A stretch of DNA of 63,090 nucleotides. Source: Planctomycetota bacterium (GTDB taxonomy: Bacteria; Planctomycetota; Planctomycetia; Planctomycetales; Planctomycetaceae). The stretch lies in contig JAURQH010000006.1 in assembly GCA_030836185.1 (NCBI GenBank), forward strand, positions 1 through 63,090, read 5' to 3'. A program made the position numbers and the translations under genes. Below are positions 11,895 through 17,046 of this stretch, piece by piece. The notes below the pieces were generated by a model. The model was not told where the DNA came from and did no database searches. It saw only the letters and a program-made list of their open reading frames with translations. Position 1 is the stretch's first letter. Every line of letters begins with the position of its first letter.

Positions 11895-12485
11895 ATGTTG
11901 GAAAAACTTTGGTTTTCAACGCTTCTCAGAGGCGTGATGGCGATTTGTTTTGGGCTGGCGGCGTTGTGTCTTCCCGGTCTCACTTTGAAAATCATCATTA
12001 TGATTTTTGGATTCTTTGCCATCGTTGAAGGCTTTGCCCTGATTGGTGGAGCGTTGGCCTTTCAAAAAGAGCATGTTGATTGGTGGCTTCCTTTAGTGAC
12101 CGGGTTTGCTGTAATGATCCTCGGTTTGCTGACTTTCTTTTGGCCCGGAATCACAGGAATGATTGTTCTGATTCTGATTGCCACACGATTTCTCGTGGTG
12201 GGTGTGACAGAGATTATGCTGGCTGTTCGCATTCGCAAACAAATTGAAGGTGAATGGTTTTTGCTGGCGCAAGGAGCACTTTCGCTTTGCCTCGGGATAC
12301 TTCTCATTGCATGGCCGGGGGCCGGAGCCTTGGCGCTCGCTTGGCTTATCGGAAGTATTGCCTTATTGAGCGGAGTGTTGACCGTGATCATCGCACTTCG
12401 ATTCCGCGGTGATCTGCAAAAAATTCACGAGCAGGTCGAAAATGAAGCGACTTCTGATGTCTCTTCATCATCCATAGTGGAGTAA
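11895..12485 (+). CDS. HdeD-family (DUF308) membrane protein
   Basis: A 196-residue protein with six hydrophobic helices arranged as DUF308 repeats (RGVMAICFGLAALCLPG, FAVMILGLLTFFWPGITG, GALSLCLGILLIAWPGAGAL). The repeated L.G...L..PG pattern is the signature of HdeD-like proteins, linked to acid resistance in enterobacteria; the role here is unknown. The ATG at 11895 is preferred over an upstream TTG at 11877 because GGTGGAG lies six bases before it. The stop codon abuts that of the convergent AroDE-like gene. Confidence 0.88.
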   Translation: MLEKLWFSTLLRGVMAICFGLAALCLPGLTLKIIIMIFGFFAIVEGFALIGGALAFQKEHVDWWLPLVTGFAVMILGLLTFFWPGITGMIVLILIATRFLVVGVTEIMLAVRIRKQIEGEWFLLAQGALSLCLGILLIAWPGAGALALAWLIGSIALLSGVLTVIIALRFRGDLQKIHEQVENEATSDVSSSSIVE

Positions 12486-13943
12486 TCAGACTGTGATCGT
12501 TTGGATCGTCTCGTCGAAGATTTCTCGGTCGAGTTCTTTACCGCTGACGGCCTTGAACATGGCAGCGAGATAATCATAGCCCAGTTCTTGCGGTGGGATT
12601 ACTCGACACCCTCGTTCCACGGCTTCCTGGGAAAACTCTGTCTCCAGTGGAAGTCGACTGAAGTCGGCAACGGTCATTTCTGGGCGGAAGAAGGCTGGAT
12701 TGATTTCGGTTTTTCCGATGCCGGGCTTTAGTGTGTCGTCGGCAATGACAGTGAGGTCAGTGTAAGTGTCGTACAGATTCATGAACGGAACTTGTCGAAC
12801 GCCCATCACTTGTGCGATTTTTTTGGCGGCGATGTCATCGGGAGAAGTGACACTCACAACGCATCCTTTTCGCGATAAACCATAAATCAAGCTGCGCGCT
12901 AATGGGTTCGTTCCGAAGACAAGCACATTCTGTTTCCCGAGTTCTTTATTTTCTTGGGCAAGAGTGCGTTCGACGGCTTTCAGCATGACTCGCCAAATCA
13001 GATTGAAGCCCTGCCATTGATTCTGCTTCTGGAAGAGTAAGTCGCAGGCTTTGGATTGCTGGACCGACTCTTCGTCTTTGTCGGAAAATTCGTGCAGATC
13101 GACATTCAAAGTGGGGTTCACAAAGATTCCAGGGATTTTGAGTGTCTCCAGGCGCTTGCGAATTTTTTCCAAACTGCCCACTTGAAAAGGTAAGCAGCGA
13201 TAGGACGAATCAATTTTATGGAAACCACGATTCAGGACTTTTGCAATTAAAGGTTGGGTCTCACCATAACCGGCCAACCCGAGAAAACGGGTCTTGGATG
13301 TGATATTATCGAGATCATAAATTTCATTCAGGTCGAATGCCGAAGTTTGACCGTCAAATGCTTCCATCCCTTTTTCGAGAGCCGCGTATAACCAGGGAGA
13401 ACCATACTTGCGACCCAATAACGAAAACGTGATGCCCGATTGCCCGACACCCATTCCCACGACGGGTAACTCCCGTTTTCCCACGACAGCTTTCAATAAT
13501 GGCCAAGCATCTTCAAAATAGCGGGTTGCCCAGGTGAACTTGACGACATCCGCTTTGGCCTTCCAAGCTTCTTCAAACATTTGGTTAACGTCGTCAATCG
13601 GCTGGTTGAGACTCGTCACGCTAATCACTCGTTTGGTTTCACCAAATCGCGGGACTTTTTTCGCAGTTTCTAGGTCCAGTTCGACGTAATCGGGACCATT
13701 GATAATCGCCTGCCGTAACATGGCAATACGTTCGTCTTCTGATCCCGAGAACTTCCCTCCATCGACTTCTCGTCGGCACGAGATAATCACAGGTTGTTCG
13801 ATCCCCTCCGTCAACTCACCCACATCGGGAGCTTTGATGAGTCGGTCCAGGCACAGTTCAATCATGTCGGCAAATTGCGCGGCGTTGAACATGTCAACTT
13901 TTGCCAGATTGCGAGACTCGGGAGTGACAGAAATACAAATCAT
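12486..13943 (-). CDS. AroDE-like fusion (dehydroquinase + shikimate dehydrogenase) lacking catalytic residues
   Basis: A 485-residue protein with the architecture of bifunctional AroDE. Residues 1-215 resemble type I 3-dehydroquinate dehydratase: SCRREVDGGKF, DYVELDLE, and VVKF with K135 at the Schiff-base position. Residues 220-480 resemble shikimate dehydrogenase. However, the dehydratase YH(N/D)F motif reads VTSL at 109-112, so the catalytic His is Thr110. In the dehydrogenase half VTIPHK is replaced by VNPTLN (Lys to Asn280), NTD by NLI (Asp to Ile316), and the NADP loop is VFGTNPLA. The frame is intact and full length. It is probably a non-catalytic or repurposed paralogue; a canonical AroDE would be expected elsewhere. 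The gene lies 36 bases after the CehA-type gene on the same strand. Confidence 0.8.
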   Translation of the reverse strand: MICISVTPESRNLAKVDMFNAAQFADMIELCLDRLIKAPDVGELTEGIEQPVIISCRREVDGGKFSGSEDERIAMLRQAIINGPDYVELDLETAKKVPRFGETKRVISVTSLNQPIDDVNQMFEEAWKAKADVVKFTWATRYFEDAWPLLKAVVGKRELPVVGMGVGQSGITFSLLGRKYGSPWLYAALEKGMEAFDGQTSAFDLNEIYDLDNITSKTRFLGLAGYGETQPLIAKVLNRGFHKIDSSYRCLPFQVGSLEKIRKRLETLKIPGIFVNPTLNVDLHEFSDKDEESVQQSKACDLLFQKQNQWQGFNLIWRVMLKAVERTLAQENKELGKQNVLVFGTNPLARSLIYGLSRKGCVVSVTSPDDIAAKKIAQVMGVRQVPFMNLYDTYTDLTVIADDTLKPGIGKTEINPAFFRPEMTVADFSRLPLETEFSQEAVERGCRVIPPQELGYDYLAAMFKAVSGKELDREIFDETIQTITV

Positions 13944-13979
13944 CGACTCAGCTTTCTCGAAACATGGAAGAGGGGGAGA

Positions 13980-16379
13980 TTATTCTGCCACACTTTCCGC
14001 AGCAATGGAACGATAGATCTCCTTCGCTTTTTCATAGGCAGGTTTTGCCTGTTTCTGATCGGCTTTCGAGATCAATCTTTGCTTGCTATTCCAGCAATTT
14101 TCGACTGCTTTGATGCACCATTCTGCCGAACGTCGGCTGGAACGAATTGGTTTGCCGCCCACTTCAACGAAGATTGGGTTGGTATGACACGATGGAAGAA
14201 TCCGCACCGCCACCCAACTGGAATGAGCGATGTCGATGTCAAACTCCATGGGAACCGTGGCCCCATCTGCAACCAATTCCTGTTTGGCGACGACTTCACC
14301 ATTCACGACAATTTCCACAGGAACCTTCCGAGACTCGCCAATTCGACAACGCTCGACGTTCCAGTAAGGTTTCTCATCAAGACGACGATTGCGAATCGAT
14401 TCTGTGAAAGGTGTCGGTTTCGGTTCCAGGAAAGCGGCGGCATCGAAAGAAACATTCACCTTGCCCGGTTTCTCCAAGTCGAGCTGACTGATTTTTCCGT
14501 CTGATCCCGGTTCTCCCAAGGCAACATCATTCACCTTGAAGTCCAGCAGATGGGTCAATCCGTCTCCGCAATAGCTGCGCCCATCTTTCAGGCCGGCAAC
14601 CCAGTTATCGAAAGAGAACTCTTCAGAATCATCCAGCTTCACGTAAATGCGACCGAGTCCGACTTTATCACCAAAGATGCAGGGAAAGTCGGTCTCTCCG
14701 CTGATGCGAGCTTTCATGCCACAATTAAGGGTGTGATACCAGATGTTGAGTTCCCAGATCGCAGGAGTATCAACGGCTGAGATAAAGTCACAGACACCAT
14801 GAGCCACGGTCACAATGTATTCATTCGCCCCGATGCCATCGAAGCGGGGGACTTCATAATCGGGTAACTTATAGGCTGCCTTGCCTCGAGGCCCTGGTTG
14901 ATGGCGAAAGATATCAATGCGTTGTCCGTTGTCTGCATAATCGGGCAGCGCAAGTCCCCAACCGCTGTGAGAATATCCGACCACTCCTCCTTGTTCCTGT
15001 CCCCATTTCAAAATGGGAAGTGTCCAAGTCGGCCATTCTTCGATGAGTGTCGTTCCTGGATAATCGTCTTCTTTCAATCGCAGCAGGCACAAATGCCCCG
15101 CATGGGACGAGGGGAAACCGCTGACTTCGACATCGTAACGCATCAGATAATCGGGCGTCGAAAGGTCAGAAACACCCCCTTCAAAATATTTCTTCTGGGA
15201 ATACCAGCACGGTCCCCAAGTCAGCACACAACCAACATTCAAATCTTCACCGAGAATATGTCGCATCATGTCGGCGGGCGTGACGCCTTCGGTCGGAGCA
15301 TCGTAATGTGCACATCCGGCCGCATGGACATGATGATCGCCCGAGAACCAATTTCGTTTCGCGGGATGAACCCAGCGTTCGAGTTGAAAATCGAGATTGA
15401 ACGTCTGTGTTCCATCGGGGATCGTTACCTTTGTTGTTTTTGTGAGATACTCGGGCCCTCGGGTCACCGTGATGTGGTAATTGCCGGGAGGTAAAACGAT
15501 CGATTCTCCATCCTCTCGATAAATCTGTTCGTGGAAGAAAAAGTCGGGCGCCAATCGGCGAGAAGGTGCCGGATAAACGCGGCCTCGATCATCTTTGATG
15601 ACGAGCGAAGCCATCGCGGGCTGGCCGTCGATGTCTTTGATGCCGAGCTTGATATCAACTGCGGGAGCACACTCAAACAGAATCGGCAACTCGTTGCGAA
15701 AACCGATATCCTGTGTTCCTTGTCCGACATTGAACGAAAGCTCGGCTTCTCGTTGCCCGCTATCGCGGCTATAAATTTGAATGATTCGATATTCCACAGG
15801 CAAGCCGGAGAGAGTTTGTTTGAGTGGCTGTTTGTCGAACATCGTCAATTCGAGAAAGCGATTTGTCGTTTGATTAGGACGCACCAATTCGGGATTGTCA
15901 GCAAGCGGTTTTTGTCGCGCGCCCCGTCCGCGTTGATACAAAGGAGCCGCGTTGGGGCTTTGTCCGACCAGCTTCGCCGTCACTCCGGCTTCGTTATGGA
16001 CTTTAATCAGAAACGTGCGCCAACCGTTCTTCATCAACTCTTTTTTAACCGGTCCTTCGGCAACCTTGACTCGACTTTCCGAGTTGATGTTGACCAAGGC
16101 GAGACATCTGCGATCAAGGATGCTCTGAATGTCGGCAATCGATTTTGGGATATCCTCGTTTTCCATCGCTGTTTTTAACGACTCGGATTCCGTATCACTC
16201 AACGGCGAACCCACATAACGGAGCGCTGCTTCCAATCGCTTGGTCGCCGCAACAAACGGTTGATGAGCCACATCGTCAATGATGGGTAACTCGGGACCAT
16301 TCGCGAAGAGCAGGGCAGAACGACAAAGTGTAAGACCGATTGTCAGCAGCAAACATCGAGCAGTGAGCGAGTTCCGCAT
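13980..16379 (-). CDS. CehA/McbA-type (PHP-like) exported metallohydrolase
   Basis: About 799 residues with a signal peptide at the N-terminus (LLLTIGLTLCRSALLFA). The N-terminal half is beta-rich with a carboxypeptidase-regulatory-like stretch (ASLVIKDDRGRVYPAPSRR). From about residue 345, FSGDHHVHAAGC provides the paired metal-binding histidines of the PHP fold, followed by GYSHSGWG, as in CehA/McbA-family hydrolases. Substrate is unknown. The ATG at 16379 is chosen because AGGAGA lies six bases upstream; the longer TTG frame would include that ribosome site. It is probably cotranscribed with the AroDE-like gene. Confidence 0.8.
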   Translation of the reverse strand: MRNSLTARCLLLTIGLTLCRSALLFANGPELPIIDDVAHQPFVAATKRLEAALRYVGSPLSDTESESLKTAMENEDIPKSIADIQSILDRRCLALVNINSESRVKVAEGPVKKELMKNGWRTFLIKVHNEAGVTAKLVGQSPNAAPLYQRGRGARQKPLADNPELVRPNQTTNRFLELTMFDKQPLKQTLSGLPVEYRIIQIYSRDSGQREAELSFNVGQGTQDIGFRNELPILFECAPAVDIKLGIKDIDGQPAMASLVIKDDRGRVYPAPSRRLAPDFFFHEQIYREDGESIVLPPGNYHITVTRGPEYLTKTTKVTIPDGTQTFNLDFQLERWVHPAKRNWFSGDHHVHAAGCAHYDAPTEGVTPADMMRHILGEDLNVGCVLTWGPCWYSQKKYFEGGVSDLSTPDYLMRYDVEVSGFPSSHAGHLCLLRLKEDDYPGTTLIEEWPTWTLPILKWGQEQGGVVGYSHSGWGLALPDYADNGQRIDIFRHQPGPRGKAAYKLPDYEVPRFDGIGANEYIVTVAHGVCDFISAVDTPAIWELNIWYHTLNCGMKARISGETDFPCIFGDKVGLGRIYVKLDDSEEFSFDNWVAGLKDGRSYCGDGLTHLLDFKVNDVALGEPGSDGKISQLDLEKPGKVNVSFDAAAFLEPKPTPFTESIRNRRLDEKPYWNVERCRIGESRKVPVEIVVNGEVVAKQELVADGATVPMEFDIDIAHSSWVAVRILPSCHTNPIFVEVGGKPIRSSRRSAEWCIKAVENCWNSKQRLISKADQKQAKPAYEKAKEIYRSIAAESVAE

Positions 16380-16500
16380 GTTTTCTCTCCTGGGTGTCAA
16401 GTGTTTGACTCATTCTGAACCGATGGGAAGGCGCATGCAATTCATTTCTGGCAAGCAGACCAGATGTCAGAATTACGAAGTCGTTCTAAGGCCAATCAGA

Positions 16501-17046
16501 TCAATGAAACGGGACAAACGCTGCTCCCTCATTTTGTTCGTTGATAACCACTGTAAGTGCTGAAACGGCAACGGTGATCTCGTCTGCAACTTGCGAGATT
16601 GGATACTCATTTCGAGCCAGAGATTGCCCGCAGACATAAAAACGAACACCATGATCTTTCAGTTCCTTCATCAGAGACAGGTTGGGATTGTTGCCGATCT
16701 TCGTCACTTTATGATACGCACTGTCATTCAATGCCGAGGCGGTTGCACTGCCATGAAACACAACTGCGATGTCAAACATTCCTTTTTTGACTGCTCCGTT
16801 TTCGGCAGCCAGATTCAGAAACATAGCGACCCGGTCGAGTCCTTTGAGTGCGTTGTTCTCATTGCCAATGTTTGTGATATCAAACACCATCTTCGTGCCG
16901 GGAACGGGTTGATGAGAAGCGTCTGGTAAAGCGACATACTTTCCCGCTTGCGAAATAAGAGAGGTTTTGAACGCGGGAGTGTTGGTGATGACAGCGGCAG
17001 AGGCCAAACCTGTAACACCGAGGACAAGAAGTGCTGTTTTCATCAT
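16501..17046 (-). CDS. DsrE/DsrF-like family protein, exported or anchored
   Basis: A 181-residue protein with an N-terminal hydrophobic segment (ALLVLGVTGLASAAVI) followed by a DsrE-like fold: MFLNLAAENGAVKKGMFDIAVVFHG, LMKELKDHGVRFYVCGQSL. The single Cys in VCGQSLA sits where DsrE-like sulfur-relay proteins have a reactive Cys. Secreted DsrE paralogues occur widely with unknown role. Its ATG overlaps the stop codon of the upstream membrane-protein gene (ATGA overlap), so the two are translationally coupled. Confidence 0.82.
   Translation of the reverse strand: MMKTALLVLGVTGLASAAVITNTPAFKTSLISQAGKYVALPDASHQPVPGTKMVFDITNIGNENNALKGLDRVAMFLNLAAENGAVKKGMFDIAVVFHGSATASALNDSAYHKVTKIGNNPNLSLMKELKDHGVRFYVCGQSLARNEYPISQVADEITVAVSALTVVINEQNEGAAFVPFH

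Follow-up and report, generated by a model that had tools for sequence, protein, structure and literature searches.

The minus strand of the window (the whole 63,090-nucleotide stretch of Planctomycetaceae DNA analyzed here) encodes a 485-aa protein, P, that is, judged by homology and tree, an ancient Planctomycetia paralog of AroDE, the fusion of 3-dehydroquinate dehydratase (AroD; DHQ) with shikimate dehydrogenase (AroE; SDH). P has lost key residues of both enzymes, retains the Schiff-base lysine of AroD and is under strong purifying selection, as is canonical AroDE. As an ancient copy that lost key residues, kept a reactive lysine and is strongly selected, P probably has a new job, e.g., sensing or processing another small molecule. 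By analogy with the fungal repressors QutR and GaaX, we favor, with a probability of about 0.42, the reading that P is a metabolite-binding pseudoenzyme with a pocket centered on this lysine.

Domains and active-site residues of P

The P open reading frame (ORF), which has an ATG start and 485 codons with zero internal stops in the window ORF list, is intact and full length, as the initial annotation had stated. Residues 3-209 match Pfam DHquinase_I (PF01487) at 7.9e-36, with 124.7 bits against a cut-off of 22.2, and Foldseek matches the DHQ-like half to AroD structures; P thus belongs to this family both by sequence and by fold. With regard to the SDH-like half, no Pfam SDH family matched P at E values up to 1, NCBIfam aroE models matched weakly (the best over residues 220-476, 1.4e-10), and Foldseek returned SDH structures. 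The bifunctional AroDE model NF006802 matched residues 1-453 (1.5e-19), its 70.2 bits not reaching the cut-off of 598, and P scores far under the cut-offs of every AroD, AroE and AroDE equivalog model matched. The top full-length solved relative is Arabidopsis DHQ-SDH (2gpt, residues 2-476), and the best Foldseek match of the predicted model is DHQ-SDH 2o7q (TM 0.75; each of the two structure models of P used 10-11 sequences and is weak in the region of residues 159-202). Because homology runs over the full length and the model best matches DHQ-SDH, P is, on sequence and predicted fold, an AroDE fusion by descent; the DHquinase_I match, the weak aroE matches and the end-to-end AroDE alignment agree with the earlier claim that signatures of both folds are present. 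Pfam recognized no output domain in P itself.

To anchor residues, E. coli AroD and AroE were aligned together with 112 planctomycete proteins (Table 1). Arg48 and Arg213 are the substrate-binding residues of AroD, Lys65 and Asp102 are the catalytic residues of AroE, and the AroE NADP site comprises a GxGGx[AS] loop and an N-R-T motif. None of these sites is intact in P: both AroD arginines and both AroE catalytic residues are replaced, the loop glycines Gly126, Gly128 and Gly129 correspond to Gly344, Asn346 and Pro347 (G-T-N-P-L-A), the N-R-T motif reads S-P-D, with Pro368 at Arg150, and AroE Ser14 and Ser16 are Pro231 and Ile233. Type I dehydroquinases act through a lysine that attacks the carbonyl of the substrate to give a Schiff base, and His143 is considered to play a dual part in catalysis (PMC4114755); of the dyad formed by His143 and Lys170, P keeps the lysine and has threonine for histidine. 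AroD Glu46, Arg82 and Gln236 are retained as Glu29, Arg57 and Gln199, and Glu86, Glu116 and Phe225 as the similar residues Asp61, Asp90 and Tyr186; aspartate at the Glu86 position is also found in 32 of 33 canonical AroDE rows.

The losses at His143, Lys65 and Asp102, the retention of Lys170 and the altered NADP loop had all been called correctly in the initial annotation, and the E. coli-anchored alignment shows that the histidine, lysine and aspartate are truly absent rather than shifted. Its list of losses was right as far as it went and overlooked Arg48 and Arg213; its statement that only Lys135 remains was correct for the lysine and too narrow otherwise, as P also keeps the positions of Glu46, Arg82 and Gln236 and has Asp for Glu86 and Glu116. 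Judged by these residues, P lacks catalytic features that define AroD and AroE, and neither name should be given to it; in planctomycetes, automatic naming based on DHquinase_I may include a protein that lacks this activity.

Table 1. Positions in the window (unless another locus is given) of P, its domains, key codons and related genes
Feature	Coordinates	Strand	Basis
AroDE-like paralog P, 485 aa, intact	12486..13943	-	ORF, homology, tree
DHQ-dehydratase-like domain, residues 1-212, strongly conserved	13308..13943	-	PF01487 match, pairwise identity
Shikimate-dehydrogenase-like domain, residues 213-485, drifted	12489..13307	-	Weak NCBIfam aroE matches, pairwise identity, Foldseek
Arg11 codon, P-specific (76/79), possible substitute anion binder	13911..13913	-	Alignment conservation
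Cys31 codon, AroD Arg48 position	13851..13853	-	Alignment
Thr110 codon, AroD catalytic His143 position	13614..13616	-	Alignment
Lys135 codon, AroD Schiff-base Lys170, kept	13539..13541	-	Alignment
Ser174 codon, AroD Arg213 position	13422..13424	-	Alignment
Glu190 codon, P-specific acid (78/79), near strand 8 by alignment, role putative	13374..13376	-	
Asn280 codon, SDH Lys65 position	13104..13106	-	Alignment
Ile316 codon, SDH Asp102 position	12996..12998	-	Alignment
Remnant nucleotide loop, residues 344-349, G-T-N-P-L-A	12897..12914	-	ORF, alignment
Upstream 806-aa gene, 36 bases before P, presumably co-transcribed	13980..16400	-	ORF; no Pfam match
Kinase-P fusion in another genome	L147:7042-9852 (G039:C1 about 6471041-6473851)	-	Pkinase + DHquinase_I

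The same pattern was found in an alignment of 79 P rows from 76 genomes with 33 canonical AroDE rows, which comprises only fetched sequences and leaves out the broken P copy of genome G252. At the His143 position, P proteins carry Thr (65), Ala (8), Asn (2), His (2), Arg (1) or Ser (1), as compared to His in 33/33 canonical rows; the Lys170 position is Lys in 77 and Arg in 2 P rows and Lys in all 33 canonical rows. The Arg48 position holds Cys in 53, Arg in 23, Ala in 2 and Gly in 1 of the P rows, and the Arg213 position is Ser in 63/79 and Arg in none. The SDH lysine and aspartate are found in 1/79 and 0/79 P rows, respectively, versus 33/33 canonical rows for each, and the NADP-loop glycines are kept in part of the P rows other than that of the window. 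As the pattern recurs over 79 rows, residue loss is a trait of the P family and not the fault of one assembly. A histidine within three columns of the catalytic position occurs in 6/79 P rows, two of them in the column itself; no conserved histidine column was found anywhere in the 79 rows (the best, in the SDH half, reaching 29/79), and the His position underwent at least 7 changes on the tree of P. P-specific near-invariant residues include Ser10, Arg11, Asp17, Asn20, Ala21, Trp147, Leu189 and Glu190; conservation of Ser10, Arg11, Asp17, Asn20 and Glu190 suggests a re-specified rather than a decaying protein.

Two pairs of P proteins depart from the common pattern. L051 (genome G008) and L146 (G137), from one genus, have a histidine at the catalytic position and are otherwise P-like, with Cys at position 31; a reversion is possible. 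L143 (G146) and L145 (G362) carry arginine in place of the Schiff-base lysine, so a Schiff base is not universal in P.

Distribution, ancestry and selection

Besides P, the window genome encodes a canonical AroDE on contig C59, found by the search that the initial annotation had proposed, and a separate AroE on C93. Together these give one further type I dehydroquinase and two further SDHs; the window genome had no match to a type II dehydroquinase. Among 37 genomes of the window's family, sorted by E-value and identity, canonical-type AroDE is found in 37/37 (some matches being partial, with catalytic residues confirmed in the 24 aligned) and P-type proteins in 35/37 (absent from G017 and G022). 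Because canonical-type AroDE is found in all 37, P is hardly needed for the shikimate pathway. In a search of 397 Planctomycetia genomes, P-type matches, defined by an E-value proxy (below 1e-80 within the family and below 1e-70 outside it) and counted by eye from the table, were found in 120/124 genomes of the window's family, one copy (G252) being broken, and in 28/273 genomes outside it (23 in family f3, 4 in f8 and 1 in f4); most of these other class genomes match AroDE but not P. The four family genomes with no match at E below 1e-80 are G174, G186, G022 and G342; in G342, a DHQ-type fragment of 65 residues located where a contig ends may be a cut P. In a phylum sample of 294 genomes, 17 matched P at 1e-60, all of them in the window's family.

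On a direct check, G258 and G399 have P but match neither canonical AroDE nor a type II dehydroquinase; G326 likewise matches no type II enzyme, and beside P it has only a fragment of a canonical AroDE. These three genomes, in which gaps may explain the missing AroDE since they are drafts of 80 to 1340 contigs, leave room for P activity. We also observed a second, more divergent P-type copy beside P and canonical AroDE in both G026 (L045, C41:95136-96638) and G015 (contig C177). In G252, a one-contig genome, P is split by two frame changes (L144, G252:C1:3294500-3300500), reflecting either true decay or an assembly error.

In a tree of 38 P and 33 canonical rows, P and canonical AroDE are split by one fully supported long branch, and the same split is found in a 112-row quick tree (79 P and 33 canonical rows) with six key columns removed. 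Within P, rows of the window's family fall on one side (58 rows, support 99) and those of other families on another (21 rows, support 90), these 21 aligned rows from f3, f8 and f4 grouping with P. One old duplication with later losses, or transfer between families, could account for this distribution; the tree topology fits duplication.

With regard to selection, which the initial annotation had suggested assessing by dN/dS across close relatives, the values given here rest on one unsaturated pair per gene (three pairs were computed for each, the closest being the reliable one). For the window and L006 (95% protein identity), dN/dS of P is 0.045 (NG86) and 0.060 (YN00), and canonical AroDE of the same species pair has 0.043 and 0.056, respectively; P is thus under strong purifying selection, like canonical AroDE. 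A further P pair has a dN/dS of 0.053 at a dS of 2.8, and the remaining whole-gene values are saturated. By domain, NG86 values are 0.026 (DHQ) and 0.056 (SDH) for P versus 0.041 and 0.044 for canonical AroDE. Among 22 genomes with both proteins, the DHQ halves average a pairwise identity of 0.628 in P versus 0.630 in canonical AroDE, as compared to 0.381 versus 0.551 for the SDH halves (residues 213-475). Columns conserved to at least 90% number 49 in P and 63 in canonical AroDE for the DHQ half, and 14 and 64, respectively, for the SDH half. Taken together, dN/dS, identity and conserved columns indicate altered constraint on the DHQ half of P and mostly lost constraint on its SDH half. Enrichment of invariant P positions at the barrel rim, defined by strand C-ends from model strands plus two ends (165 and 189) placed by alignment, was not significant (14/56 versus 22/156, p = 0.095). 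The proposal that P is a full-length pseudoenzyme kept by selection for a new role is borne out insofar as P is a paralog without the residues for either reaction that is constrained beside a canonical AroDE.

Genomic context and possible functions of P

In the metabolite-binding reading, which we prefer, P would no longer catalyze either shikimate reaction. Its DHQ-like half would be kept as a pocket around Lys135, remodeled for a carbonyl metabolite other than 3-dehydroquinate, and its SDH-like half, with substrate and NADP sites lost, would serve as a scaffold or contact surface. The metabolite may be bound as a Schiff base, which, because the histidine is gone, we propose to be slow to turn over, and ligand-bound P may hand a signal to a partner, as proposed for QutR and GaaX. 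The family-wide loss of catalytic residues, together with the near-constant Schiff-base lysine (77/79 rows), argues for this reading; with lysine and acids and without histidine and substrate arginines, P could capture a different carbonyl compound.

The only direct hint at an output of P comes from G039, a genome of another family, and points in the direction of signaling. This genome has three P copies, one of which makes up the C-terminal half of a single 936-aa open frame whose N-terminal half is a Ser/Thr kinase (Pkinase, 1.9e-43, on an 819-aa part; DHquinase_I, 1.1e-25). This is the only P-type frame over 700 aa among the matches listed in the 397-genome search, and no further kinase fusion was found in the three f4 genomes reached, one of which has the fusion. 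The fungal analogy and the kinase fusion place a sensor slightly ahead of an enzyme; against a sensor, the fusion is found in one genome, in a divergent copy on a long branch in both trees, P has no recognized output domain of its own, and no single neighbor recurs in most P genomes.

The gene upstream of P in the window encodes an 806-aa protein, which we take to be PHP/CehA-McbA-like; the other adjoining gene encodes a DUF308 protein, and there were no aro genes among the five window neighbors of P given to Pfam. The 806-aa family is the commonest neighbor of P, found in 7 of the first 29 neighborhoods (P itself being found in 28/29) and in 9/48 of a larger set, which excludes three of 51 neighborhoods where the gene caller had retained an overlapping ORF in place of that of P. 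Eight of these nine neighborhoods are in the window's family (three in the window's genus) and one is in G039, where the gene lies four ORFs from P on the same strand; by coordinates, G021 provides another adjacent case. In most genomes the 806-aa family is located apart from P or missing; it is also present in genomes without P, and long relatives of the 806-aa protein occur in many of 59 Planctomycetia genomes searched. Across the 48 neighborhoods, no neighbor is common to most P genomes, and the other neighbors vary; the link with the 806-aa gene hints at an old gene pair rather than providing a functional assignment. A promoter and terminator scan of positions 12300-16800 yielded fewer sites than shuffled sequences.

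Nearly as likely as a sensor is a new Schiff-base enzyme, in which Lys135 would form an imine with another carbonyl substrate, Glu29, Asp61, Glu88 and Glu190 would do the acid-base work of an aldol, retro-aldol or elimination reaction, and the SDH-like half would be a dead passenger. The constraint on the DHQ half of P equals that on the active enzyme and fits an enzyme equally well, Glu29 and Asp33 are found in 79/79 P rows, Glu190 in 78, Lys135 in 77 and Arg57 in 76, and PMC6528562 places the DHQ-like domain of GaaX in the class I aldolase superfamily. By contrast, the His position is mostly Thr and also Ala, Asn, Arg or Ser, with no replacement catalytic residue fixed at that site, the lysine is absent in 2/79 rows, and P has no conserved metabolic neighbor. 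A covalent sensor, which we consider rather unlikely, would trap a keto or aldehyde metabolite on Lys135 as a Schiff base that stays unprocessed because the histidine and substrate arginines are gone, with its state being read by the SDH-like half or by a kinase, either fused or a partner.

It is improbable that P, itself non-catalytic, pairs with canonical AroDE in mixed dimers and in this way tunes flux into the shikimate pathway. The two proteins have a common fold and mostly co-occur (P in 35/37 and canonical-type AroDE in 37/37 family genomes), and the Candida Aro1 homodimer is mediated by its DHQase domain, according to PMC9074039; however, in the 37-genome list P lies within a few kb of canonical AroDE only in G027 (convergent, about 2.6 kb apart), most class genomes from other families match AroDE but lack P, the drafts G258 and G399 show the reverse, and such a role leaves the conservation of the lysine unexplained. 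No tie between P and regulation of the shikimate pathway itself was found among the window neighbors or in AroDE proximity across the 37-genome list. Still less probable is a specialized dehydroquinase that weakly dehydrates 3-dehydroquinate. Such an enzyme would be consistent with the kept Lys170, Glu46, Arg82, Glu86 and Gln236 positions, the catalytic-position histidine in two P rows of one genus (G008 and G137) and P being the only dehydroquinase found in the drafts G258 and G399, but the three lost AroD residues are found in only 2/79 (His143), 0/79 (Arg213) and 23/79 (Arg48) P rows, and the DHQase domain of C. albicans Aro1, in which the catalytic dyad is missing, is described as inactive in vitro (PMC9074039). 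A decaying relic without function, as might be read from the site-less SDH half, the split G252 copy and the 4/124 family genomes with no P-type match at E below 1e-80, is very unlikely given a dN/dS of about 0.045, which largely refutes it, and full-length open frames in nearly all P-type matches listed.

Comparison with known systems

Canonical AroDE, represented by plant DHQ-SDH (2gpt and 2o7q) and by the C59 copy of the window genome, shares with P the two-domain order, full-length homology and fold (TM 0.75); in contrast to canonical AroDE, P lacks AroD His143 and Arg213, usually Arg48, and AroE Lys65, Asp102, the serine pair and the NADP site. C. albicans Aro1 (PMC9074039) resembles P, which is presumably inactive, in having a naturally inactive type I DHQase domain within a multidomain protein. 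However, the other domains of Aro1 are active and, according to the same paper, its DHQase domain can be deleted without detectable growth defect, whereas P is a separate whole paralog under strong selection.

The closest functional analogy is with fungal AROM-derived repressors, which PMC10512348, PMC6528562 and PMC5488244 describe as thought to be catalytically inactive and inducer-binding; the likely inducer is 2-keto-3-deoxy-L-galactonate for GaaX and dehydroquinate or a relative for the quinate repressors, the inducer has been proposed to bind in the DHQ-like domain, and inducer-insensitive Qa-1S mutations point to the SDH-like domain. Like P, QutR/QA-1S, GaaX and TanX are shikimate-enzyme paralogs with DHQ- and SDH-like domains, and in GaaX paralogs, according to PMC10512348 and PMC6528562, Pfam misses the shikimate kinase and SDH domains and recognizes DHQ in most, just as it recognizes only DHQ in P. 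By contrast, QutR and GaaX carry a shikimate-kinase-like domain and sit beside an activator gene; since the AroDE model match of P starts at residue 1, there is no room for a shikimate-kinase-like N-terminus, and neither gene adjoining P (one encoding the 806-aa protein without a Pfam match, the other the DUF308 protein) is an activator gene. Moreover, according to PMC6528562, loss-of-function missense mutations of GaaX are densest in the SDH domain, where inducer-insensitive Qa-1S mutations are also found, while P conserves the DHQ domain instead. By this analogy P perhaps works like QutR or GaaX, yet it is not a member of that group.

Among the titles and abstract openings listed from the open-licence literature, none describes an AroDE paralog of planctomycetes or a shikimate pseudoenzyme in bacteria, and the main text of a Planctopirus limnophila essential-gene paper (PMC10632474) does not mention dehydroquinate, shikimate, chorismate, aroD or amino-acid biosynthesis. 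Regulators recast from shikimate-enzyme paralogs are known in fungi; P looks like a separate bacterial case in which half of the catalytic dyad is kept, and it offers a clean system for asking whether a retained Schiff-base lysine in a pseudoenzyme catches a ligand. If P were a covalent sensor, bacteria would have an independent equivalent of the AROM-derived repressors of fungi, kept family-wide in Planctomycetia.
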